Origin: Shewanella putrefaciens
GTDB lineage: Bacteria > Pseudomonadota > Gammaproteobacteria > Enterobacterales > Shewanellaceae
Direction of reading: 5' to 3'
Length of the DNA: 64,000 nucleotides
Assembly (NCBI RefSeq): GCF_016406325.1
Contig: NZ_CP066370.1
Coordinates: 1,426,001-1,490,000 of the forward strand
The translations under genes and the position numbers were made by a program. Of this stretch, positions 8,149 through 39,876 are shown piece after piece (positions within the stretch are counted from its first letter, which is position 1; the number at the start of each line of letters is the position of its first letter). The notes below the pieces were generated by a model. It made no database searches. It had not been told where the DNA came from and saw only the letters and a program-made list of their open reading frames with translations.

Positions 8149-9519
8149 ATGTTAGATTTTTTATGGAACTTAGGTTCTTTTATCGTGGCGTTGGGGTTGT
8201 TAATTACCGCCCACGAATACGGTCATTTCTATGTCGCGCGTCGCTGCGGCGTTAAAGTCGAGCGTTTCTCTATTGGTTTTGGCAAGGCCATTTGGCGCCG
8301 TATGGGTAAAGATGGCACTGAATATGTGGTCGCCATGATCCCCCTCGGTGGTTACGTCAAAATGCTCGATGAGCGTGTCGAAGATGTGCCTGACGAGCTA
8401 AAACATCAGGCGTTTAATCGTAAAACGGTATGGCAACGTATTGCGATTGTTGCCGCAGGCCCGATAGCCAACTTTATTTTTGCTATTATCGCATTGTATT
8501 TTATGTACTTGATTGGTGTGCCATCACTTAAACCGGTGATCACTTCTACGATTCCAGGAACTGCTGCTGCGCAAATTCAAGTCACTGAACCTATGCAAGT
8601 GACGGCAATATCAGGTCAGCGTGTGCGCAATTGGGAAGAGGTGAATCTTGCGCTTGTTGGTCATATTGGTGATCCCAGCTTGAGTGTTTCCCTTGCGCCA
8701 TTAAATAGTTTGCAGGGGTTTGAGTCAAATGCCAGAACCTATACGTTAGATACACGCCAATGGCGCTTTGATCCTGAAAAGGAATCACCGATAACCACCT
8801 TAGGGTTAGGGATTTATCGTCCAGAGATTGAACCTAAGGTTGCCTTAATCAGTGAAGGAAGTGCTGCAGCAAATAGTGAGTTAAAGGTTGGCGATACGCT
8901 CGTTGCTATCAATGATGAACCTTATACCGATTGGCAGGCTTTTGTTGACATTATTCAACATTCTGCCAATGTGCCTGTGAGTATAATGGTGCGTCGCGAT
9001 GGCGAACAGTTTGTGGTTACTGTGACGCCGACAAGTACAAAAAATGCTGAAGGTAAAGAGATTGGGGTACTAGGTGTCAGCCCCGCACAGGCACAATGGC
9101 CTGAGAATATGCGTTTACAACTAGAATATGGGCCAATCGATTCTTTTGCTATTGCTGCAGATAAAACATGGCAACTTGTTGCAGTCAGCTTTAAGATGAT
9201 TGGCAAATTATTTACCGGCGATGTGTCGGTGAAAAACCTGAGTGGACCCATCTCGATAGCACAGGGTGCGGGCAGTAGTGCAAACTATGGCTTGGTCTAT
9301 TTTCTCGGGTTCCTCGCGCTCATCAGCGTCAATTTAGGCATCATTAACTTGCTGCCTTTACCTGTGCTCGATGGGGGACACCTGCTGTATTACTTTATTG
9401 AAGTAATAACTGGTAAACCTGTGCCTGAAAAGGTGCAGGAAATAGGATTCAGATTTGGGGCAGCAATACTGCTGATGTTGATGAGCATTGCGCTTTTCAA
9501 TGATTTTGCCCGACTCTGA
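8149..9519 (+). CDS. rseP: Site-2 intramembrane zinc protease RseP
   Basis: RseP cleaves the anti-sigma factor RseA within the inner membrane after DegS, releasing sigma-E, and also clears signal peptides. The 456-residue protein has HEYGH at residues 22-26 in the first membrane helix (zinc ligands H22, H26 and catalytic E23). It then has two periplasmic PDZ domains (roughly 110-310) and the C-terminal NLLPLPVLDGGH motif, whose Asp is the third zinc ligand. GGAG precedes the ATG. It lies directly upstream of bamA, fitting its role in envelope stress. Confidence 0.96.
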   Translation: MLDFLWNLGSFIVALGLLITAHEYGHFYVARRCGVKVERFSIGFGKAIWRRMGKDGTEYVVAMIPLGGYVKMLDERVEDVPDELKHQAFNRKTVWQRIAIVAAGPIANFIFAIIALYFMYLIGVPSLKPVITSTIPGTAAAQIQVTEPMQVTAISGQRVRNWEEVNLALVGHIGDPSLSVSLAPLNSLQGFESNARTYTLDTRQWRFDPEKESPITTLGLGIYRPEIEPKVALISEGSAAANSELKVGDTLVAINDEPYTDWQAFVDIIQHSANVPVSIMVRRDGEQFVVTVTPTSTKNAEGKEIGVLGVSPAQAQWPENMRLQLEYGPIDSFAIAADKTWQLVAVSFKMIGKLFTGDVSVKNLSGPISIAQGAGSSANYGLVYFLGFLALISVNLGIINLLPLPVLDGGHLLYYFIEVITGKPVPEKVQEIGFRFGAAILLMLMSIALFNDFARL

Positions 9520-9550
9520 GCAAGGACAGACTAATAATTAGAAGTGCTCT

Positions 9551-12031
9551 ATGAGATTGAATAAACTTTTTGCCTCGATGTTATTCGTCGGTGCGTCGTT
9601 TTCAGGGACTGTGTTGGCGGATACTTTCCAACCCTTTGAAGTGACCGACATCCAAGTTGAAGGTTTGCAGCGAGTCGCACTTGGTGCTGCCTTGTTAAGC
9701 TTACCAGTAAAAGTAGGTGACACTGTTGATCAGTTAAGAATTCAACAAGCCATTAAAAGCCTGTATGCATCGACTAACTTTGAAAATGTCTCTGTCAGTC
9801 GTGACGGCGGTGTCTTGGTGGTGAAAGTCACCGAACGCCCAACCATCAGTGCTGTGACATTTGAAGGCAACAAAGACATTAAAGACGAACAGTTACAGGA
9901 AAGTCTGGACGGTTCTGGTGTTAAAGTCGGTGAGTCGCTCGATCGCACTATGCTGACAGGCATTGAAAAAGGTTTGCAGGATTTCTACTACGGCGTAGGT
10001 AAATACGGCGCCAAAGTTGAAGCTCAGGTGATCAACTTACCCCGAAACCGCGTTGAACTAAAATTTAAATTTACCGAAGGGTTAGCGGCTGAAATTCGCC
10101 AAATTAACGTGGTTGGTAATAAAGAGTTCACCGATGCTGAGCTTATCGGCATGTTGGAACTGAAAGATTATGTGGCTTGGTGGGATTTATTTGGTGAGCG
10201 CCGCTACCAGAAGCAAAAGCTTCAAGCCGATCTCGAGACTATCAAAACCTATTATCACAATAAGGGTTATATCCGCTTTGAAGTCACTTCGACTCAAGTG
10301 GCGATGACACCTGACCGCAAAGGTTTATATATCACCATCAATGTTAATGAAGGTGAGAAATATAAAGTAAAAGACATCAATTTAACCGGCGATTTAATGG
10401 GTCGTGAAGAATTGATGCGATCTATTTTACCGATTAAAGCGGGTGATATGTACAACGGCGGTGATGTGACCTTTACCGAAGAAATGTACAGTAAATATTT
10501 AGGTCGTTTTGGTTACGCTTATCCTGAAGTAAAAACTTATCCAGAAATTGATGATAAAACGAAAGAAGTAACGTTAAACATCAATGTTAAACCAGGCAAA
10601 CGGGTTTATGTTCGTGCGATTAACTTTACGGGTAATACTGTTACTAAAGATGAAGTGATGCGCCGTGAACTGCGTCAGATGGAAGGTGCGTGGTTAAACT
10701 CGGCACAAGTTGAGCAATCAAAAGCGCGTCTTAACCGTTTAGGCTATTTTGAAACTGTTGATACTGAAACTATTCAAGTTCCTGGCACCGATGATTTAGT
10801 TGATATCGCTGTAAAAGTGAAAGAACAGCCATCAGGTTCATTTAATGCGGGTGTGGGTTACGGTACTGAATCAGGTTTAAGCTTGCAGTTTGGCGTGCAG
10901 CAAAACAACTTCTTAGGTTCGGGAAATCAAGCTGGCATTAGTATGAGTACCAACAAATACTCGAAAAATGTCAACTTATCTTATACCGATCCCTATTGGA
11001 CTAAAGATGGCGTGAGCTTAGGGGGAAGCATTTATTGGAGTGAATTTGACGCCAATGAAGCTAACTTAGAACGCTATAAAAACAGTTCGTATGGTGTGGC
11101 GCTTAACTCAGGTTTCCCAATTAACGAATACAACCGTATTAATGGTGGAATTGGTTATCGTCATAACACGATTTCTGAAATTTCAGCCTATGAGCAAGCA
11201 CTGCGTTTCTATAATATTTATCGAAACGATGATCCTAATGCCGACTTAAGTTTTGATAACTTTGAGCTGAGTTTAGGTTGGTCACGCAGTACCTTAAACC
11301 GTGGCACTTTCCCAACGGATGGTTCATCACAACGTCTAAACGGTAAGATGACGGTTCCGGGTTCAAACCTGCAATACTTTAAAACTGATTTTGATACCAA
11401 CTATTATTTCCCTGTTACCCGCAGTCATAACTTTGTGGTCTTAGCTCGTGGCCGTTTAGGTTATGGTAACGGTTACGGTGAGTACAATAATAATGAGCAA
11501 ATTCTACCTTTCTGGGAAAACTATTATTCCGGCGGTAGCACTTCATTACGTGGCTTTAAGTCAAACTCGGTTGGTCCTCGTTCATTCTATCTCTACCGTG
11601 GTAGTGAGCCCTGTGCACCTGATCCATCAGGTGATGGTTGTAGTTTACCGGGCGATCCTAACAGTATTCAGGTGAGTTCAGGTCGTTCAATCGGTGGTAA
11701 TGCGATTGCAACGGCAAGTATGGAGTTTATTGTACCCACACCGTTCTTAGATGAGGCCTATTCAAATTCGGTGCGTACAAGTTTCTTCCTCGATGCCGGT
11801 AACGTATGGGATACCGAGTTTGATTTTGATGCTTACCAAACACTTCCTGCTGAGGAATTTGCTAAATTGCAGGATTATAGCGATCCATCGCGTATCCGCG
11901 CCTCTTGGGGGGTGAGCCTACAATGGTTATCACCAATGGGACCTATGGTATTTAGCTTAGCGTGGCCACTTAAGGAATACGAAGGCGATCAAACAGAGAT
12001 CTTTTCGTTCAATATTGGCAAAACTTTTTAA
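9551..12031 (+). CDS. bamA: Outer membrane protein assembly factor BamA
   Basis: BamA is the Omp85 core of the BAM complex that inserts beta-barrels into the outer membrane. The 826-residue precursor has a signal peptide (about residues 1-23, cleaved after VLA), five POTRA repeats (about 25-420), and a 16-strand barrel. STSLRGF in loop 6 is the Omp85 RGF signature. The last residues FSFNIGKTF end in Phe, as expected for a barrel substrate. An inserted Cys-containing loop (EPCAPDPSGDGCSLPG) follows the RGF motif. skp is the next gene. Confidence 0.97.
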   Translation: MRLNKLFASMLFVGASFSGTVLADTFQPFEVTDIQVEGLQRVALGAALLSLPVKVGDTVDQLRIQQAIKSLYASTNFENVSVSRDGGVLVVKVTERPTISAVTFEGNKDIKDEQLQESLDGSGVKVGESLDRTMLTGIEKGLQDFYYGVGKYGAKVEAQVINLPRNRVELKFKFTEGLAAEIRQINVVGNKEFTDAELIGMLELKDYVAWWDLFGERRYQKQKLQADLETIKTYYHNKGYIRFEVTSTQVAMTPDRKGLYITINVNEGEKYKVKDINLTGDLMGREELMRSILPIKAGDMYNGGDVTFTEEMYSKYLGRFGYAYPEVKTYPEIDDKTKEVTLNINVKPGKRVYVRAINFTGNTVTKDEVMRRELRQMEGAWLNSAQVEQSKARLNRLGYFETVDTETIQVPGTDDLVDIAVKVKEQPSGSFNAGVGYGTESGLSLQFGVQQNNFLGSGNQAGISMSTNKYSKNVNLSYTDPYWTKDGVSLGGSIYWSEFDANEANLERYKNSSYGVALNSGFPINEYNRINGGIGYRHNTISEISAYEQALRFYNIYRNDDPNADLSFDNFELSLGWSRSTLNRGTFPTDGSSQRLNGKMTVPGSNLQYFKTDFDTNYYFPVTRSHNFVVLARGRLGYGNGYGEYNNNEQILPFWENYYSGGSTSLRGFKSNSVGPRSFYLYRGSEPCAPDPSGDGCSLPGDPNSIQVSSGRSIGGNAIATASMEFIVPTPFLDEAYSNSVRTSFFLDAGNVWDTEFDFDAYQTLPAEEFAKLQDYSDPSRIRASWGVSLQWLSPMGPMVFSLAWPLKEYEGDQTEIFSFNIGKTF

Positions 12032-32969: not shown

Positions 32970-33644
32970 ATGACCTCAGAGTCTGACGTGGTATTGGTAC
33001 GACCATTATCTAAGCGAAATGGGTTAACGCTCACTTGGGGAGGCGCCTGTTCTCTTATATTAGGCTTTGGGTTATTCATCCTTTTCCCAACATTTTTTGC
33101 AATAGGGCTAGTTTTTTTCAGTTTAGGGGCGATTGCACTGATCTTGGGATTAGCGAAGGTCTATGAGCCTGAAACGACGATAAGCTTAGATGAAAAAGGA
33201 TTAAGTTATTTTCATCGCCGCGGAAAAGTGTTCATCGCATGGGATAATATTCAGCGTCTTGATATTCCTCGTGTGACTCAAGGTTTCAACACCATTGAAC
33301 TGTCTTATTTAGGCATTAAATTAAAACACTTAAATCCGGTTCTCGATAACATATCCCTACGCTTAGCGACAGGATTATTGACTGAGCAACGTCCATTATT
33401 AGTGACCGCGGCTTCTCAGCAGGAAGATCTTGCCACCCTAGAGACATACCTTGGTACCGAATTTAGTCCTTTAGTGATTGAAGGGGACAGATATCGTGGT
33501 GTGCTGGCGATGTTTGGTCATCGCTGCGTTATGCTTGATACCCATTTAGGCTATCACCTCTATATTCCCCACGACAGTTTGGACCGAGACCCCAAAGAAT
33601 TTATTAAACTGTTAAGGCAGCGTATTGCACAGGGGATATCATAG
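32970..33644 (+). CDS. DUF2982 family membrane protein
   Basis: The 224-residue protein has two adjacent membrane helices (about residues 20-60) followed by a soluble domain. FHRRGKVFIAWDNIQRLDIPRV looks like the PH-like core seen in membrane-bound bacterial PH-domain proteins. I recognise it as the DUF2982 type found in Shewanella and relatives; no function is known. It starts 3 bases after the ElyC-like gene with AGGA upstream, so the two are probably one operon. Confidence 0.7.
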   Translation: MTSESDVVLVRPLSKRNGLTLTWGGACSLILGFGLFILFPTFFAIGLVFFSLGAIALILGLAKVYEPETTISLDEKGLSYFHRRGKVFIAWDNIQRLDIPRVTQGFNTIELSYLGIKLKHLNPVLDNISLRLATGLLTEQRPLLVTAASQQEDLATLETYLGTEFSPLVIEGDRYRGVLAMFGHRCVMLDTHLGYHLYIPHDSLDRDPKEFIKLLRQRIAQGIS

Positions 33645-33674
33645 TTAGGTCTGAGGGCTCTACTAAAACGAGAA

Positions 33675-33707
33675 GGTCACTAGTGCAATAATGCCAATCC
33701 TAACTAA
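33675..33707 (+). repeat. 33-base direct repeat, copy 1
   Basis: The 33 bases starting GGTCACTAGTGCAATAATG recur at 33858-33890 with 30 of 33 identical. Both copies include ATGCCAATCCT. Copy 2 overlaps the palindrome at 33799-33866. Confidence 0.8.
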
Positions 33708-33798
33708 GTCCTTAATTCACAAATCCGCCCTAAACAGCTTTTGTACCAAGGCAAGACAGTTAAGTTATGTGCATTACGTATTAATTGTCATTGCTTCC

Positions 33799-33866
33799 CC
33801 AGTGACACGCCGTGAATATATCCATATAGGCTCGACGGCGGCATCCATGCCGCCAACGGTCACTGG
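33799..33866. repeat. REP-like palindromic element
   Basis: The outer arms CCAGTGAC (33799-33806) and GTCACTGG (33859-33866) enclose a perfect inner hairpin, GGCGGCAT-CC-ATGCCGCC (33837-33854). The structure is typical of extragenic palindromes; I recall similar sequences in other Shewanella genomes but have not searched. Confidence 0.7.
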
Positions 33867-33890
33867 TGCAACAATGCCAATCCTCACTAA
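33858..33890 (+). repeat. 33-base direct repeat, copy 2
   Basis: This is the second copy of the repeat at 33675-33707, 183 bases downstream, with three mismatches. It starts within the right arm of the palindromic element. Confidence 0.8.
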
Positions 33891-34137
33891 CCCTATCGCT
33901 GTTCATTTAGCTAAAAAGCAATTGCCCCAAAGTTTGTTTCGCAGTTCAAAAGGGAAATAGGCCAAGTAAAGCTTTGCCTATAGAAAAGTTGATGGTTCGA
34001 CTTAGAAGTTATGTATCCCATATTTTTCGTAGTTTGCATGCTTTAATCAAAATCAAAGTCGTGGGGCTTCACCCCACACCCGACCAAAGAGGACTGCTCG
34101 TCCTATCCTCCTTGGATGTTCCATGACGCACCCCCAA

Positions 34138-34273
34138 CGGAGTTGAAAGCCCCTTGTGCTCATTGACAAATTTGCTATCGCTTCCGAAGGATGCGTCCCT
34201 GCACCTGCGAAAGCTAGCTCGCCATCCATGGCGAGACTCACGCAATTTGTCTATTCGCCCAGCGGCAACTCCG
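34138..34273. repeat. Nested inverted-repeat element
   Basis: Three nested arm pairs are visible: CGGAGTTG (34138-34145) with CAACTCCG (34266-34273), GACAAATT (34165-34172) with AATTTGTC (34244-34251), and CTCGCCAT-CC-ATGGCGAG (34218-34235). The spacing suggests a folded repeat and not a gene. Confidence 0.65.
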
Positions 34274-34468
34274 AGGGGAGGTGTATTCCTTGGAGTTTTG
34301 AGTCGTTAGATAGCGATTCATCAGCAAAAAAATAAGCATGAAAGAACGAGAAAGCTAAAACGATATCAAGTGATTACCCATCAAACAGTATAAAAAAACC
34401 GCTACCGCTAAAAAGCAAATTCCTATAGCATCATTTATACCAATTGACATGGATGTGGCAGCGGCCAA

Positions 34469-34528
34469 GTCCAACAAGCGATTTATGCCCTGCAAACAGC
34501 GCAGCGCATAAATACTAAGACGTTAGAG
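34469..34528 (+). repeat. attC-like site 0
   Basis: The R'' box GTCCAAC (34469-34475) fits RYYYAAC exactly. ATTTATGC pairs with GCATAAAT within the site, and the R' box GTTAGAG is at 34522-34528. Recombination would fall after G34522. It marks the left end of cassette 1. The cassette that would own this site's R'' box, upstream, is not identified. Confidence 0.6.
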
Positions 34529-34540
34529 CTAAGGAAAGTC

Positions 34541-34978
34541 ATGAGTATCACATTGGAAGAAATTACAAGTTCAAATTATGAAGACGTATGTGACTTAGAT
34601 GTCACGAATGAGCAACAGGAATATGTTGCGAGCAATATGTGGTCTTTGGTTGAATCACATTACTGCCAAGGGCATACCTGCAGAGCTATCTATCAGAACG
34701 ATAAGCCTGTCGGTTTTTTCATGTGGGTATCTGAAACGCCGGAAAAAGTTTCTATCTGGCGCTTTATGGTGGATCAACGCTATCAACAATCTGGTATTGG
34801 CAGAGTTGCACTAAATTTGGCGCTCAATGAAATCAAAGCCAGTGACAAAGTAAAAGAAATAGAAATTTGCTATGACCCTGAAAACCCAGTGGCCAAAGAT
34901 TTTTATTCACGTTTTGGCTTTCAGGAAGTGGGTTTGGATGAAGATGGTGAAGATATGTTGGCAGTCATCAAGCTGTGA
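34541..34978 (+). CDS. GNAT family N-acetyltransferase (cassette 1)
   Basis: The 145-residue protein is a GNAT acyl-CoA-dependent acetyltransferase. The core is IWRFMVDQRYQQSGIGRVAL, where QQSGIG is the acetyl-CoA pyrophosphate loop. It is followed by EIEICYDPENPVAKDFYSRF and GFQEVGL, the usual C-terminal block. The overall pattern resembles diamine acetyltransferases of the BltD type, from memory, so a small amine is a possible substrate. It fills cassette 1, starting 12 bases after the attC 0 R' box, with AAGGA before the ATG. It ends 1 base before attC 1. Confidence 0.88.
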   Translation: MSITLEEITSSNYEDVCDLDVTNEQQEYVASNMWSLVESHYCQGHTCRAIYQNDKPVGFFMWVSETPEKVSIWRFMVDQRYQQSGIGRVALNLALNEIKASDKVKEIEICYDPENPVAKDFYSRFGFQEVGLDEDGEDMLAVIKL

Positions 34979-34979
34979 G

Positions 34980-35053
34980 CTCTAACAATCGCCTTAAACA
35001 TCGCGGCCTCTGGACTCGCAACAAGTTGCTCGCCGTTTAGGCGAGCGTTAGGC
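34980..35053 (+). repeat. attC site 1
   Basis: This 74-base imperfect palindrome has R'' CTCTAAC (34980-34986) and R' GTTAGGC (35047-35053), the latter fitting GTTRRRY. TAACAATCGCCTTAAAC at the left mirrors GTTTAGGCGAGCGTTA at the right. R'' is the exact complement of GTTAGAG at the start of cassette 1, the pairing expected when cassette 1 is excised as a circle. The centre carries TCGCAACAAGTTGCTCGC. Confidence 0.85.
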
Positions 35054-35058
35054 ATACT

Positions 35059-35946
35059 ATGCATATTTCGTCTATTTCATTGTTCACCGTAGCGGCTCCT
35101 CCAATTGTGGGCAGTTTCATTGTACTTGCTCTAGCGGATGTGGGGTGGGGTATCTGGGGTACTCATCTGGTGGCCATTTTTTTGGCCTGCGGTCTTGCAA
35201 TGTCGGGTGCTCTGATTAAGAAGGCAGGTCATTGCCGGTTTGCAACCTTTGCCATAGTCATTCTGACCTTGATTGGCTTGGCTATACCATTGCTTGGCGA
35301 GTCATCAGAACCTGAGCGGTGGATGTCAGTTGGGCCTTTGATGCTTTATGCTGCACCGCTCTTTCTACCCTCGTTTATCGCAGCTTGTTCGGTTTTTGTT
35401 AGCAAAGACGGCAAGCATCAAATAGTGTCTTTGGCTGTCGTTATTGGAGCCGCTTTAATACTTTCTTTTCAACCAGATGCGTCCCAGGTTCTTGGGTTGC
35501 TTGTTGCTTCGGTTGTTGTCGTTATGCAGTTCCGACTTGGCATATTTAAGCTCAGCTTGGTGGTTGTTCCCATGTTATTGATAACCGTATGGGTATTCTC
35601 CTTACCGGATCCTTTGGCGCCAGTTCCTTATGTTGAGGAGGTCTTCGCCTTGGGACTGAGTCACTCATTATTCGCTGGAATAGCAATAATCGTCAGTGCA
35701 ATCGCATTGGTTGTGGGGTTGTGGATTAAATCGATGAAGGGACCTCTGTGGTTGTCCGCTGTAGCAGCTTACTATGCTTCTCTATTTGCATGCTCAATAG
35801 CAGGGCTAACACCAGCTCCGCTGGTTGGATATGGTGCAGGGCCAATTTTAGGATTTGGACTTATGTTGGGAACTCTGAGGTGTCTAGAACCTCAACTCTT
35901 GCCTAACAATCCAATACAACCGACCGCTAACGTGTCGGCTGATTGA
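35059..35946 (+). CDS. Polytopic membrane protein with SEDS (FtsW/RodA)-like motifs (cassette 2)
   Basis: The 295-residue protein has about eight membrane segments. Four SEDS-family landmarks appear in the family order: a RW-x3-GP block (R87, W88; PERWMSVGPL), QPD at 138-140 (FQPDASQVLG), VEEVFALG near 192-199, where FtsW/RodA have a TDFIFA-type motif, and GLTPAPLVGYGAGP at 249-262, where they have GLTLPLISYGGSS. It is shorter than FtsW or RodA (about 370-400), and the catalytic Asp position may be Glu. The homology is by eye. The last codons and stop lie inside attC 2, giving the tail NNPIQPTANVSAD. It is alone in cassette 2. Confidence 0.6.
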   Translation: MHISSISLFTVAAPPIVGSFIVLALADVGWGIWGTHLVAIFLACGLAMSGALIKKAGHCRFATFAIVILTLIGLAIPLLGESSEPERWMSVGPLMLYAAPLFLPSFIAACSVFVSKDGKHQIVSLAVVIGAALILSFQPDASQVLGLLVASVVVVMQFRLGIFKLSLVVVPMLLITVWVFSLPDPLAPVPYVEEVFALGLSHSLFAGIAIIVSAIALVVGLWIKSMKGPLWLSAVAAYYASLFACSIAGLTPAPLVGYGAGPILGFGLMLGTLRCLEPQLLPNNPIQPTANVSAD

Positions 35947-35956
35947 AGCGTTATTT
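35901..35956 (+). repeat. attC site 2
   Basis: This 56-base site has R'' GCCTAAC (35901-35907), fitting RYYYAAC exactly, and R' GTTATTT (35950-35956). ACAACCGAC pairs imperfectly with GTCGGCTG in the middle, and CAATCCAA with TTGAAG. R'' complements GTTAGGC at the start of cassette 2 exactly. It overlaps the 3' end of the cassette 2 gene. Confidence 0.85.
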
Positions 35957-35969
35957 GCCAAGGAAAGCC

Positions 35970-36410
35970 ATGGTAGAGCATTCAAAGACAACCAGAGTGT
36001 TAGCTTATATTTGCGCAGCGATATTGCTGCCTGTGTATATTGCAGGACCAATTTCATTGATTTTATTGTCAGGTAAGCGATTTTCAAATGCCGATGCATC
36101 GACAGTTATTTTGCTGGCCGCGCTATGTGTTGGTATGACTTATCTATGTGGGAAGTATTTTTATTTGATGGTTCGTTTTCTTAAAAACATAAAAACAAAA
36201 ATGACTTACGATAACGAAGGTATAGTTTTACGCAAAGGCACTGAAACAAAGCAGTATTCTTGGAATGATTTAAGAGCATCACGTGAATATGCCAGTTGTC
36301 AGATTTTCTGCTTAATGGATTTGAGTCAACAACATTTGTTTAGCATATGGGAGTATGCGAGTGGATATCATGAGTTTCGCCAAAAAATGCATGATGAAAT
36401 TGGCATATAA
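35970..36410 (+). CDS. Small two-helix membrane protein (cassette 3)
   Basis: The 146-residue protein has two hydrophobic segments (about residues 11-33 and 45-68) and then a soluble domain, YDNEGIVLRKGTETKQYSWN and onward, resembling the PH-like fold of small membrane-anchored bacterial proteins. No named family is recognised. ATG 35970 lies inside the cassette with AAGGA 5 bases upstream; a longer frame from TTG 35943 would begin inside attC 2 and is rejected. The stop codon lies within the R'' box of attC 3. Confidence 0.7.
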   Translation: MVEHSKTTRVLAYICAAILLPVYIAGPISLILLSGKRFSNADASTVILLAALCVGMTYLCGKYFYLMVRFLKNIKTKMTYDNEGIVLRKGTETKQYSWNDLRASREYASCQIFCLMDLSQQHLFSIWEYASGYHEFRQKMHDEIGI

Positions 36411-36482
36411 CAAGCGCAATCACAACGGGGCTGAGGCCCTCGATTCGCAACAAGTTGCTCGCGTGTGTTGCGGGCGTTAACC
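36405..36482 (+). repeat. attC site 3
   Basis: This 78-base imperfect palindrome has R'' ATATAAC (36405-36411) and R' GTTAACC (36476-36482). Left arm TAACAAGCGCAATCACA mirrors TGTGTTGCGGGCGTTA at the right. The centre carries the same 18 bases as attC 1, TCGCAACAAGTTGCTCGC. R'' matches the complement of GTTATTT, the start of cassette 3, at 6 of 7 bases. Confidence 0.75.
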
Positions 36483-36530
36483 CATAGAAATTTTTATCCG
36501 AAACTGACAAGTTAGAGCAAAGGAGCTATC

Positions 36531-36650
36531 ACGCTTTTGTCCCCAAACGTGCTGTGTATTTCTTTAAAACTTACAGGCTACACCGATGCTAAACAGGTGA
36601 GCCATGGTGATTAGCGAGACGACCGTCCGCCCCATGGACGGGGCGGTCGA
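36531..36650 (+). repeat. About 110-base direct repeat, copy A, with intact palindrome
   Basis: It begins ACGCTTTTGTCCCCAAA and ends in a GC-rich palindrome (GACCGTCCGCCCC, then ATGGA, then CGGGGCGGTC). It aligns end to end with 36787-36899 at roughly 70 percent by eye. In this copy CCGCCCC and GGGGCGG are joined by a short loop. Confidence 0.65.
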
Positions 36651-36786
36651 GCATCCACGGAGGGACTTGCTGCGAGTCGACGAGCAAATGCTATGGCACG
36701 CCTATAAGTCGGTGCCTGCATACATTAAGTTCCCAACAGCTTAAGTTATAAGTCACTCAGTCGTACTATATTTTGCACTTTTTTCA

Positions 36787-36899
36787 ACGCACTTTTTGTC
36801 CCCAAAAGCGTTACGTATGCCTTTTAAATCTATCGGTTACGCTAATGCCAAAAAGGTGAACCATAGTGATTTGCGAGATGACCGTCCACCCCATGGACG
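36787..36899 (+). repeat. About 110-base direct repeat, copy B, palindrome interrupted
   Basis: It starts ACGCACTTTTTGTCCCC and runs to CACCCCATGGACG, in parallel with copy A. The second half of its palindrome (GGGCGG) resumes only at 36952, after the inserted hairpin segment. Confidence 0.65.
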
Positions 36900-36951
36900 C
36901 TTTTTGGCATTAATGCCATCGCGGCATTTGTGAACCCTTTCACATCAGACG
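36900..36951. mobile_element. 48-base hairpin insertion with GACG duplication
   Basis: Compared with copy A, copy B carries 48 extra bases (36900-36947) flanked by GACG on both sides (36896-36899 and 36948-36951). The segment contains the perfect palindrome TGGCATTAATGCCA and a hairpin TGTGAA-CCCT-TTCACA. A 4-base duplication around a hairpin-only segment looks like insertion of a tiny mobile repeat. Confidence 0.55.
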
Positions 36952-37103
36952 GGGCGGCCCTGCATTTGAACAACATTCATATTTAACTGCCAGTTCACAG
37001 TCCATGACTCTCATTCATAAACCGAGTCATTAGATTGAAGCCTACTTGCCGATTTAGTACGCCTTTTTCTCTGATTATTACACGATAAAAAGGCGATAAA
37101 AAA

Positions 37104-37122
37104 GGGGACCTTAATGGTCCCC
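37104..37122 (-). terminator. Terminator of the decaheme cytochrome gene
   Basis: GGGGACC (37104-37110) pairs with GGTCCCC (37116-37122) around TTAAT. On the minus strand it is followed by TTTTTTATCGCC. A second hairpin, GCACTAC/GTAGTGC at 37137-37155, lies between it and the gene. Confidence 0.88.
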
Positions 37123-37165
37123 AATGAATTGCAGGGGCACTACGTAGAGTAGTGCAGGGCTACCC

Positions 37166-39469
37166 TCAGGTACTAGTGTGCACCCCTGCGTGTACCTTAT
37201 CTATGCCATAGGTTTTGCCTTCAGCATGGCAGGTTGCACAAGATTCAATCGGCAAGGTCGCATCTGTCACTGCATCAGCTTCGACAATTGCGCCATTAGT
37301 TCTAAAGTGCGCTACCGCTGCTGCATCTGAGTGAGCGTGACAACTACGGCATGATTCAGCCACAGGTGAAATATAGTAATTCCCAACTTTGACTGAACGT
37401 TTTGCTGAAGCTAAACCACCGTCATTCGCAAACAGTTTAGTATTATCTTTATGACATGCTGAACATGCAGTTTCGGGAGAAGGATAACCAACTAATTTAC
37501 CTTCAGCATCACGGAAGATCCCTGCGATAACATCAAAGTTACCACTGTGGAAACGGTGTGATACGGTGAATAAGTCTTTGTTCTTGAAGGTGACATTCGG
37601 ATTGATTACTTTGCTGCCATCTGTACCTTTATAAACAACGGTTGGATGACCAGATGCACCACTTGTATCATTGTGACAGTGCATACATTGATCAAAGGTG
37701 TAAGTGCCATGTCGAGTGCCTTTGATATAGTCCAAGGTGCCATGACATGCGTTACATTTTGCTTCTTCCACAGTAATACGAGCAGGATCAGTCATACGCG
37801 CTTTGACGACAGTACTGCTATCTAAGCTGTAAAACTTAACTGGTGCAGTGTTTCCTATTGGATTTGTTGGACCAAATTCAAGCCCTGTCGCATTACAACT
37901 GGCCACTTTGCCCGCTTTAATACAGACGTTCGCTTCGGAACCGACATACAGAGTACCTACAGCTTGTGCATCAGGAATCTCTTTAACAAAGGTTAAGACA
38001 CCATTTGAAAGAGTACCTTGAGCTAGGTTTACACTAATTGCGGTTGGTTTGACATCCCGCCATGCATAGACAGTACCGTCAGTTGCTACGTTACCTAATA
38101 GCAGACCGTTAGCAACAAACATACCTGTTGGGTTTGTTGTTGCATTATAGGTGGCTAAACTTGTGCCATTAGGAATAGGTGCGCCATTCATGGTGACATT
38201 TGCGGTTAATGTTAATGTTTTCATGCCTAGCGTGGCTGATGGTCCAACGGATGCGCCCGTAAAATCAACGGTAAACAGCGATGCATACTCTGCGCGTTTG
38301 CCTACACTGTGTACGGTTTCAGGCGCTAAGCTGCCAGTACCATGACATGCTTTACATTGAGTATCATCCGTCTGCGCTAAACCAAACTCAGAATGGTTTT
38401 CTCCTGTGGTAAAGTTCACATTGATATGGCAACCCACACAGGCCTGCGCATAAATATTTGTGTTATAGCTAGGGGCGCCATCATGGCAGGATTTACATTC
38501 TTTTAAGTCCGATGGGAAACCAATTTCACCAAAGTATTCTTTTGCTTCACCACTTAGACTACCACTAATGTGATGGCCAGCATGGAGTCTGTGGATCATT
38601 GGGCCAAAATCAAACACCCAGCCTTCGGCTAATTGCGCTTCAGTCGGTACAAGATCTGGGTTATGGCAAGCGACACAGTTTTCAACACTTTGATAGTTGT
38701 GGTGAGCTTCAATTTTCGCAATATGGCCATCGACTTCGCCATGACACTTGATACATGCGGCACTGCTTACTGTATCTTTTGCTGATACTGCTAATTCATC
38801 GGTAGCAGGAATAAAGTCAACAGGTGCAGACAATACTTTGTCAGATAAAGCGACACCAGTGCTATTTACGATGTTGTAGGCTCGCAAGATAACTCTGTGC
38901 AATGCATTCGGATTATCGTTTGGATTGATGATTGGTGCGGCACCAGAATAAGTCCAACTCGCCGTATAGCTGCCTGGATTATTTACATCTTCAGTTAAAG
39001 TACAAGCGTTTTTAGTACCGTTAAGGCCCGTTAAAGTACAAGTTAATGAAGTACCAGCTTGATTTGCTGTTGCATTATTCTGCCATTCAATTGGTGCACC
39101 CGTACCTGAAGTGTTTTCATTGGCGGTTAAGGAGTAAATGGCTATTTTGTCGAGTCCCATAAAGGGAACATCTTTACCTGCATTTTTACCTGTTAATGAA
39201 AACTTAATACTGAATCCTTCACTGCTCGTTACCTTGATATCTTGAGGACTTACAGTAAATTTGAGGTCGGTAATTGAGTCAGCGGTTTTAGCAAATGTTC
39301 CTGCTGGTGCCCCTGGCGTACCAGGTGTTCCGGGGGTGCCTGGCGTTCCAGGAGTACCTGGTGTACCAGGTGCGCCATCTTTACCATCATCCCCGTCTCC
39401 GCAGGCGGTTAAACATAGAGCACTGGTGAGTGCCAGTACCAGTAGAGATTTATTGTAGTTTTTCATCAT
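37166..39469 (-). CDS. Decaheme outer-membrane lipoprotein cytochrome, MtrC/OmcA family
   Basis: The 767-residue precursor has a lipoprotein signal ending LCLTAC (lipid on Cys23), so it is expected on the outer surface, moving electrons to extracellular acceptors. There are ten CXXCH haem motifs: CIKCH, CVACH, CKSCH, CVGCH and CKACH in one domain, then CNACH, CMHCH, CSACH, CRSCH and CATCH in another, with beta-rich domains before each, the MtrC/MtrF/OmcA plan. A collagen-like G-x-y linker with six GTP repeats follows the lipid Cys. No mtrA or mtrB-like partner is adjacent. Start 39469 or 39466, with AAGGGA upstream; a longer frame is rejected because it would bury the signal. Confidence 0.93.
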   Translation of the reverse strand: MMKNYNKSLLVLALTSALCLTACGDGDDGKDGAPGTPGTPGTPGTPGTPGTPGAPAGTFAKTADSITDLKFTVSPQDIKVTSSEGFSIKFSLTGKNAGKDVPFMGLDKIAIYSLTANENTSGTGAPIEWQNNATANQAGTSLTCTLTGLNGTKNACTLTEDVNNPGSYTASWTYSGAAPIINPNDNPNALHRVILRAYNIVNSTGVALSDKVLSAPVDFIPATDELAVSAKDTVSSAACIKCHGEVDGHIAKIEAHHNYQSVENCVACHNPDLVPTEAQLAEGWVFDFGPMIHRLHAGHHISGSLSGEAKEYFGEIGFPSDLKECKSCHDGAPSYNTNIYAQACVGCHINVNFTTGENHSEFGLAQTDDTQCKACHGTGSLAPETVHSVGKRAEYASLFTVDFTGASVGPSATLGMKTLTLTANVTMNGAPIPNGTSLATYNATTNPTGMFVANGLLLGNVATDGTVYAWRDVKPTAISVNLAQGTLSNGVLTFVKEIPDAQAVGTLYVGSEANVCIKAGKVASCNATGLEFGPTNPIGNTAPVKFYSLDSSTVVKARMTDPARITVEEAKCNACHGTLDYIKGTRHGTYTFDQCMHCHNDTSGASGHPTVVYKGTDGSKVINPNVTFKNKDLFTVSHRFHSGNFDVIAGIFRDAEGKLVGYPSPETACSACHKDNTKLFANDGGLASAKRSVKVGNYYISPVAESCRSCHAHSDAAAVAHFRTNGAIVEADAVTDATLPIESCATCHAEGKTYGIDKVHAGVHTST
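39314..39367 (-). repeat. Collagen-like GTP tandem repeat within the cytochrome gene
   Basis: Six consecutive Gly-Thr-Pro codon triplets (residues 35-52) lie within a longer Gly-x-y stretch (residues 26-57). At DNA level it is a 9-base unit repeated with third-position changes (GGTGTACCA-like on the plus strand). Such repeats can change length by slippage. Confidence 0.9.
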
Positions 39470-39876
39470 CGCGTCCCTTTTCTTTCTATAAGACTGCGTG
39501 TGCAGCGTCTCTAATATAGGGCGAACCATCTACTTATAAAGTGGTATTTGTGAGTTTGTATCTGATATGTGAAGGATGATTTAACAACTTAAAATGGTAA
39601 TTTCAAAAGATGAATTTAATCATTATGAAAAATTAAATAGCCCAAAATAAATGTGATGAATATTGCAAATATTTACGTTGATTTTTAATAAATTAATTAG
39701 ATTAATTTTCATTTAAGCATCAGCCTGAATAATATTTGGCTTTTATTTTTGAGATGCACAATAGATAGCGCATTTTTATCGGAGATAACTTAATAAATTG
39801 GCATGTATGGAGAATGAAACGAGGATAAAATAACAAGGCTAACATTATGTTAACCTTGAAGCATCTCTCTGCGGTT
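39470..39876. other. Intergenic region upstream of the cytochrome gene
   Basis: This 407-base, very AT-rich gap should contain the cytochrome promoter and its control sites. I could not find a complete CRP or FNR site; one TGTGA half-site is near 39652. No gene is seen. Confidence 0.5.

Follow-up and report, generated by a model that had tools for sequence, protein, structure and literature searches.

A cassette array without an integrase gene between two dispersed repeats in the chromosome of Shewanella putrefaciens

A chromosomal insert of Shewanella putrefaciens carries three gene cassettes of the integron type between two repeated sequences: on the left L, which is the end of an IS91-like element, and on the right a conserved sequence named R. 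Both sequences act as borders at many loci, with different genes lying between the same borders, and the first of the three cassettes is mobile at the G/TT crossover point. With slightly better than even confidence, the insert can be regarded as a defective copy of a mobile integron that is devoid of intI and is refilled by an integrase acting in trans.

The insert and its three cassettes

The window, that is, the whole stretch of 64,000 nucleotides that was analysed, contains the insert between two genes that are neighbours elsewhere (Table 1). Homology to four related genomes (G015, G024, G039 and G045) ends at 33631-33632 and restarts at 37086-37096; in these genomes the insert is missing from the locus, and the DUF2982 and decaheme cytochrome genes are adjacent or nearly so. 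A fifth genome (G042, L055) has kept the right flank, the left part through L (84%) and a 45-base piece at R (89%). Between L and R it has an ORF of 164 amino acids and one of 163 instead of the window cassettes, to which they gave no blastn match. The initial annotation had stated that its reading would be abandoned if relatives always carried the same three genes; they do not, since four of these genomes are empty and the fifth has other genes. Upstream of L lies the body of a non-autonomous element, M, of which the left edge is found near 33922 in four loci (L051-L054). In related genomes the dispersed repeat inside M has a copy number that ranges from several to many. Elsewhere in the window, t44 RNA (RF00127) is found at 1914-2013 on the + strand.

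Table 1. Coordinates of the features discussed (positions in the window unless preceded by C1)
Feature	Position	Strand	Description
Analysed window	C1:1426001-1490000		Part of a single contig of 4,386,330 bases
DUF2982 gene	32970-33644	+	Left neighbour of the insert
Insertion	33632-37093	.	Between the DUF2982 gene and the cytochrome gene; edges approximate
M	33922-34328	+	Body of a non-autonomous element; found with L at other loci
Repeat inside M	34042-34306	+	Dispersed, about 265 bp; also alone at other places
L	34329-34521	+	Right end of an IS91-family element; its attC-like hairpin (34469-34521) immediately precedes the crossover of cassette 1
Cassette 1	34523-35047	+	ORF 34541-34978, GNAT acetyltransferase; attC1 34980-35053; phasing 7/7
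Cassette 2	35048-35950	+	ORF 35059-35946, 295 aa; attC2 35901-35956; phasing 7/7
Cassette 3	35951-36476	+	ORF to 36410; attC3 36405-36482; phasing 6/7
R core	36476-36542	+	Conserved 67-nt sequence; begins at the last crossover
Y	36543-37093	.	Right-hand region of dispersed repeats, next to R
Cytochrome gene	37166-39529	-	OmcA/MtrC-type decaheme cytochrome; right neighbour of the insert

Four attC-like sites and three cassettes on the same strand had been proposed from the sequence, with a seven-base phasing that is exact for cassettes 1 and 2 and holds at six bases for cassette 3, and all of this is borne out. The R'' boxes, read directly, are GTCCAAC (34469-34475), CTCTAAC (34980-34986), GCCTAAC (35901-35907) and ATATAAC (36405-36411), and the crossover G of GTT falls at 34522, 35047, 35950 and 36476. 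In all three cassettes, the start (GTTAGAG, GTTAGGC and GTTATTT, respectively) is complementary to the R'' of the attC at its own end, as it is in integron gene cassettes. When attC-like sites in the region 33600-37200 are linked by this phasing, with one mismatch allowed, they form a chain of four, in which the last crossover picked by the scan differs from the one read directly. Not one of 1000 dinucleotide-preserving shuffles reached a length of four and a single one reached three, while 60 other tiles (30 stretches, both strands) gave at most two. Such shuffles were used, rather than an attC covariance model, because the loop lengths of attC sites differ much. The bottom strands of the four sites, folded as single-stranded DNA, have z values of -3.95, -1.89, -2.53 and -2.79, and attC1 and attC3 have a segment of 41 nt in common (78%). 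The ORF of cassette 1 matches PF00583 (E 5.1e-12). No family match was obtained in Pfam, NCBIfam or PADLOC for the ORF of cassette 2 (at E 0.001) or for that of cassette 3, which is open from 35943 and has a likely ATG at 35970.

As the initial annotation had noted, the window holds no intI: all 12 integrase-type matches of the genome fall outside it, and it contains no match to TIGR02249. The search of the remaining genome that had been recommended gave no match at E≤1e-70 and none above the curated cut-off. It yielded only a broken intI at C1:3279941-3280602, about 1.8 Mb from the array, which covers residues 94-315 in two frames. Since the genome is without an intact intI, recent turnover of cassettes in it would need an integrase from outside; intI is found at E≤1e-70 in 76 of 127 genomes. 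The array thus has no adjacent integrase gene, it lacks the intI that, together with attI, stands beside the array in a complete integron, and no attI lies between L and cassette 1, which L directly precedes. Several attC-like sites do lie close together (those of the three cassettes and the L site, according to the phased-chain scan). The classification as a CALIN, an attC cluster without integrase, therefore stands as far as the three cassettes with their attC-like sites and the lack of a nearby intI are concerned. It does not extend to site 34469 as an ordinary attC. A CALIN of the ordinary kind, in which all four sites are attC and the first is the remnant of a lost cassette, would have the right spacing and phasing, but it is highly improbable: the R'' of the first site sits in a multi-copy end of the IS91 family and is therefore no record of a lost cassette.

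The proposed mobility at G/TT was observed for cassette 1, the only one of the three that was found elsewhere with G/TT edges, and this occurrence independently proves it to be a cassette. Positions 34522-35046 are 98.9% identical over 525 bp to a copy with the same edges in another genome (G036, L046), about 4.7 kb beyond an attI that lies next to an intI above the curated cut-off (C2:1639662-1640600); the 39 flanking bases match at chance level (11/39 and 9/39). Further copies, at 89-91%, occur in G050 and G046, and G036 has one as well. A search of the other fetched loci at E≤1e-15 gave no copy of cassette 2 or 3, except for the attC3 part.

The left border and the IS91-like element

The last 200 or so bases 5' of cassette 1 are repeated in the genome, and many of the copies stop at the same base. 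L is 93.9% identical to the end of two IS91-like copies (L009 and L010) in which a tyrosine recombinase gene and transposase reading frames lie upstream of L. Domains were called on the L010 recombinase and on the transposase in L136, a relative whose DNA is about 68.6% alike to the copies of this genome. This transposase matches PF04986 (E 1.6e-48) and PF14319 (E 3.8e-27), and hence the Y2/HUH transposase and the IS91 zinc domain that mark full copies of the family are present in L136, the window having the end only. In both copies of this genome the transposase is split into two overlapping frames (L010:6065-7181 and L009:5899-7015), the DNA being identical over this stretch. In L010, L is followed by an HNH-like gene and then by a group II intron reverse transcriptase (8527-9876, - strand), with R/Y-like sequence further on.

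The blastn search for L gave 89 rows, 83 of which reached base 58 of 65 and represent 47 distinct end-complete copies. Six rows were left out: three that show one and the same internal partial match, two that the locus end interrupts and one L060 copy truncated at base 40. GTT was no requirement in this selection, and two of the copies are in loci fetched for cassette 1 (L046 and L047). All 47 are directly followed by GTT, which reads GTTA in 46 cases and GTTG in one. IS91 requires a fixed tetranucleotide at one end, and such a tetranucleotide is found here. The preference in these counts would suit an IS91-like element that is a mere parasite of integrons, with no part in cassette traffic and with a transposase that targets GTTR at att sites, in the manner of IS1111-attC elements and group IIC-attC introns. 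This explanation is given a chance just short of even. On its own it leaves unexplained the dispersed arrays that have the same R and different genes at fixed loci, and it can be compatible with an origin of the insert from a mobile integron. Of 127 genomes, 62 contain a shortened L pattern (at most one mismatch), which has 12 hits in the present one, and 2 contain its backward control; as the pattern includes GTTR, it is no test of the target.

Many L copies are followed by a matching cassette end. An exact R'' partner lies within 1.3 kb of 21 of the 47 copies (300 permutations: mean 4.06, maximum 10) and is lacking at that distance for the other 26, and when one mismatch is allowed, 39 copies have a partner (mean 28.2, maximum 36). 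Copies before unrelated genes carry the same R'' (GTCCAAC) or a variant of it. The opposite, left end of the element reads G/TTGAACTAAGCC. In L010 and L229 a scan identifies its left neighbour as attI; in L136 the neighbour is the end of a further copy, and in L009 it is the inner part of the intI relic. By eye, some other copies have an attI-like neighbour, and the neighbour is attC-like in L137 and in one copy of L060. A cassette slot can be occupied by full as well as by mini copies of the element. The mini copies, about 297 bp long, occupy one slot in L137 and L060, and the one in L137 stands between an attC-like end and a cassette with an exact R''.

It could be imagined from this arrangement that L is itself a working recombination site, the IS91-like transposon doubling as a cassette that is moved by its HUH transposase as well as by the integron integrase, and L capturing cassettes. 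The element ends at G/TT on both sides, its mini copy fills the L137 slot, and its left start GTTGAAC agrees with the R'' GTCCAAC at six of seven positions, the seventh being a T.G wobble on the bottom strand. Furthermore, L has a strong bottom-strand hairpin. Copies also stand at attI (two by scan and a few more by eye), which is where the newest cassette enters an integron. The match to R'' is inexact, though, an empty L-R junction is not seen and the similarity between L and attI is weak, and we regard such a function of L as rather unlikely. The wider idea that a transposon of the IS91 family has become an integron cassette, with an end that combines a terminal hairpin and an attC-like site and spreads landing places for cassettes, is similarly tentative. 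If it were true, the spread of L, together with the border R, would make the chromosome a scattered integron that integrases in trans refill at its existing sites. A descent of L from attI was also considered and was rejected: the similarity is too weak, with 17, 22 and 17 of 3000 shuffles equally good for the three attI sites, and several genomic 60-mers are as similar to attI sites as L is. In L145 and L149 a second, different hairpin end (..TCACTAA../GTTA) lies 5' of genes that end on R; it perhaps belongs to another IS91-like family.

The right border and the content of the loci

By blastn, 23 distinct copies reach to near the start of R, and 21 of these begin at GTTA. A scan that demands GTTA gave 38 hits, two of them being the window site, and 37 rows were aligned. 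The R pattern is found in 50 of 127 genomes, with eight hits in the present genome and none for the backward control. L lies within 4 kb for 16 of the 22 R copies that have at least 5 kb of upstream sequence, eight of the 16 being in the present genome; many of these stretches were fetched as L copies. The remaining six have no L within 6 kb upstream. When the R copies of the present genome are found by pattern, six of eight have L within 4 kb, and one of the other two has only about 1.4 kb upstream. In the adjoining Y region a direct repeat of 106 bp is present (36535-36640 and 36794-36899), and direct repeats TTGYCCCAAA were seen by eye near the unit ends.

R also occurs on plasmids, in 27 records at E≤1: 16 from Shewanella, three from Vibrio, two from Citrobacter and one each from Photobacterium, Moellerella, Enterobacter, Escherichia, Salmonella and an uncultured record. 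Judged by eye, R follows attC-like ends in other genomes as well as on plasmids. Such an end directly precedes R in five of seven plasmid stretches; it does not in the Salmonella plasmid, where R is partial, and ANA-3 was not judged. The Enterobacter and Moellerella plasmids have the order attI, cassettes, R (L190 and L192; fosG or dfrA1). In these two stretches no gene is annotated as an integron integrase, while other site-specific integrases are annotated. Because the same R follows fosG and dfrA1 cassettes on enterobacterial plasmids, the unit reaches beyond the genus. A search of 39 stretches around intI loci (275 kb in total) gave no R (best E 0.49), so that a link of R to a founding integron is tentative. 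For the same reason, R was rejected as the right half of attI or as a far edge beside intI. The available part of one report (PMC9345347) provides a lead only, namely that R might be the end of a strand-biased circularizing element.

The same pair of borders encloses different content at the same place in different genomes. At a locus designated B, both L and R are present in five genomes (G024, G036, G029, G002 and the present one; stretches L052, L223, L224, L225 and L124), with contents of 0.76-3.9 kb that have a single 57-bp match in common. The left flank of this locus, with an attI-L chimera in it, is common to G036 and the present genome, yet the two differ in content. Some of what lies between the borders in L052 matches, at 97.6% identity over 595 bp, the G036 stretch (L046) that also carries cassette 1. 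Among five other genomes, R occurs at locus B without L in G006 and (by blastn) in G045, and neither border was found in G039, G015 and G042 at the thresholds used. At locus A the content differs as well; R is found without L in the present genome and in G024, and in G044 the gap measures only about 150 bases. None of 12 pattern hits in 129 genomes has L joined directly to R, and therefore no empty docking site was seen.

Instead of an integrase, homologous recombination between the dispersed L and R/Y repeats might swap contents between loci, as the main copies of L in the genome are 86-97% alike and those of R/Y 74-92%. Cassette 1, however, is shared without an adjoining L or R, and its edges fall at attC crossovers, which makes this route unlikely. 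It is far less probable still that the cassettes were inserted singly into secondary, attG-like sites of the chromosome. Such sites are described in the available part of the literature, but here both borders are repeats common to other loci and not locus-specific sequence.

Origin of the array and relation to known systems

The cassettes of the insert would be ordinary integron cassettes, brought and exchanged at G/TT by an integron integrase in trans. An element of the IS91 family may have settled in the first-cassette slot of an integron, its right end L becoming the left border of the array. Afterwards intI, attI and most of the element would have been lost or replaced, as is suggested by the L009 element that abuts a cut intI, and the array would persist between L and R. 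An integrase from elsewhere would add and remove cassettes, a step that we infer, like the order of events. R may form the far edge of the mobile unit, which is the weakest step of the proposal. Since the borders stay while the cassettes differ, these loci seem to be fixed docking sites that act together as a scattered integron.

An origin from a mobile integron is favoured by the phased chain, which is beyond chance, by the copy of cassette 1 that G036 carries, with exact edges, in the neighbourhood of attI and intI, and by the match of part of the L052 content to the same stretch. The order attI, left end of the IS91-like element, L and gene, found beside an intact intI in L229 and without intI in L010, points in the same direction. 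On a Pseudoalteromonas plasmid, an annotated intI and an IS91-like element come before an L-like end, behind which stands a cassette with an exact R'', and the intI relic of the present genome abuts the left end of an IS91-like element, after which come the element itself, L, small genes and R (L009). Further support comes from the position of L within 4 kb of most R copies, from the different content at the same locus and from the plasmids on which attI, cassettes and R succeed one another. Counted against this origin are the L copies without an exact partner (26 of 47), the R copies without L (6 of 22), the absence of R from the 39 intI stretches and of L-R junctions from the 12 hits, the lack of an intact intI in the genome and the detection of cassette 1, but not of the other two, at another place. 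Two further procedures, greedy chaining of sites on intI arrays and attC picking anchored on R, yielded several doubtful partners, and the counts do not draw on them.

CALINs and SALINs, that is, attC clusters and single attC sites without an integrase, are common in Shewanella according to the available part of PMC9229058, which also has a single case of ISShvi3. The present array resembles them in having attC-bounded cassettes far from intI and scattered over the chromosome; it differs from them, as there reported, in that both its borders are repeats common to many loci and genomes. ISShvi3 is an IS91-like element beside an attC, described in the same text as a 'new gene cassette structure'. 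The element described here likewise lies beside an integron cassette and is perhaps of the same kind, the two being compared by description only, but it has 47 end copies, including mini and truncated ones, many of them at loci without intI. Mobile elements at integron recombination sites also include the IS1111-attC elements and the class C-attC group II introns, both of which are named in the available text (PMC9229058). In contrast to these, the element studied here has an attC-like hairpin as its own end. The IS1111-attC elements and class C-attC introns use different enzymes from the IS91-like element. ISCR1 of class 1 integrons is another IS91-type element associated with an integron, and in the descriptions available it accompanies the 3' conserved segment, unlike the element here. 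ISCR1 is not known to occupy the first-cassette slot. No description of an array with two shared borders was found in the titles and abstract beginnings of the open-licence literature.

With two defined borders the question becomes testable, since a sequence search can list the docking sites and the genes inside them can be traced from strain to strain. One docking site of the present genome, at locus B, carries between L and R a Gabija-type anti-phage pair (L124:7834-11167, corresponding to C1:3477834-3481167), with matches to GajA at E 2.2e-248 and to GajB at E 1e-203.
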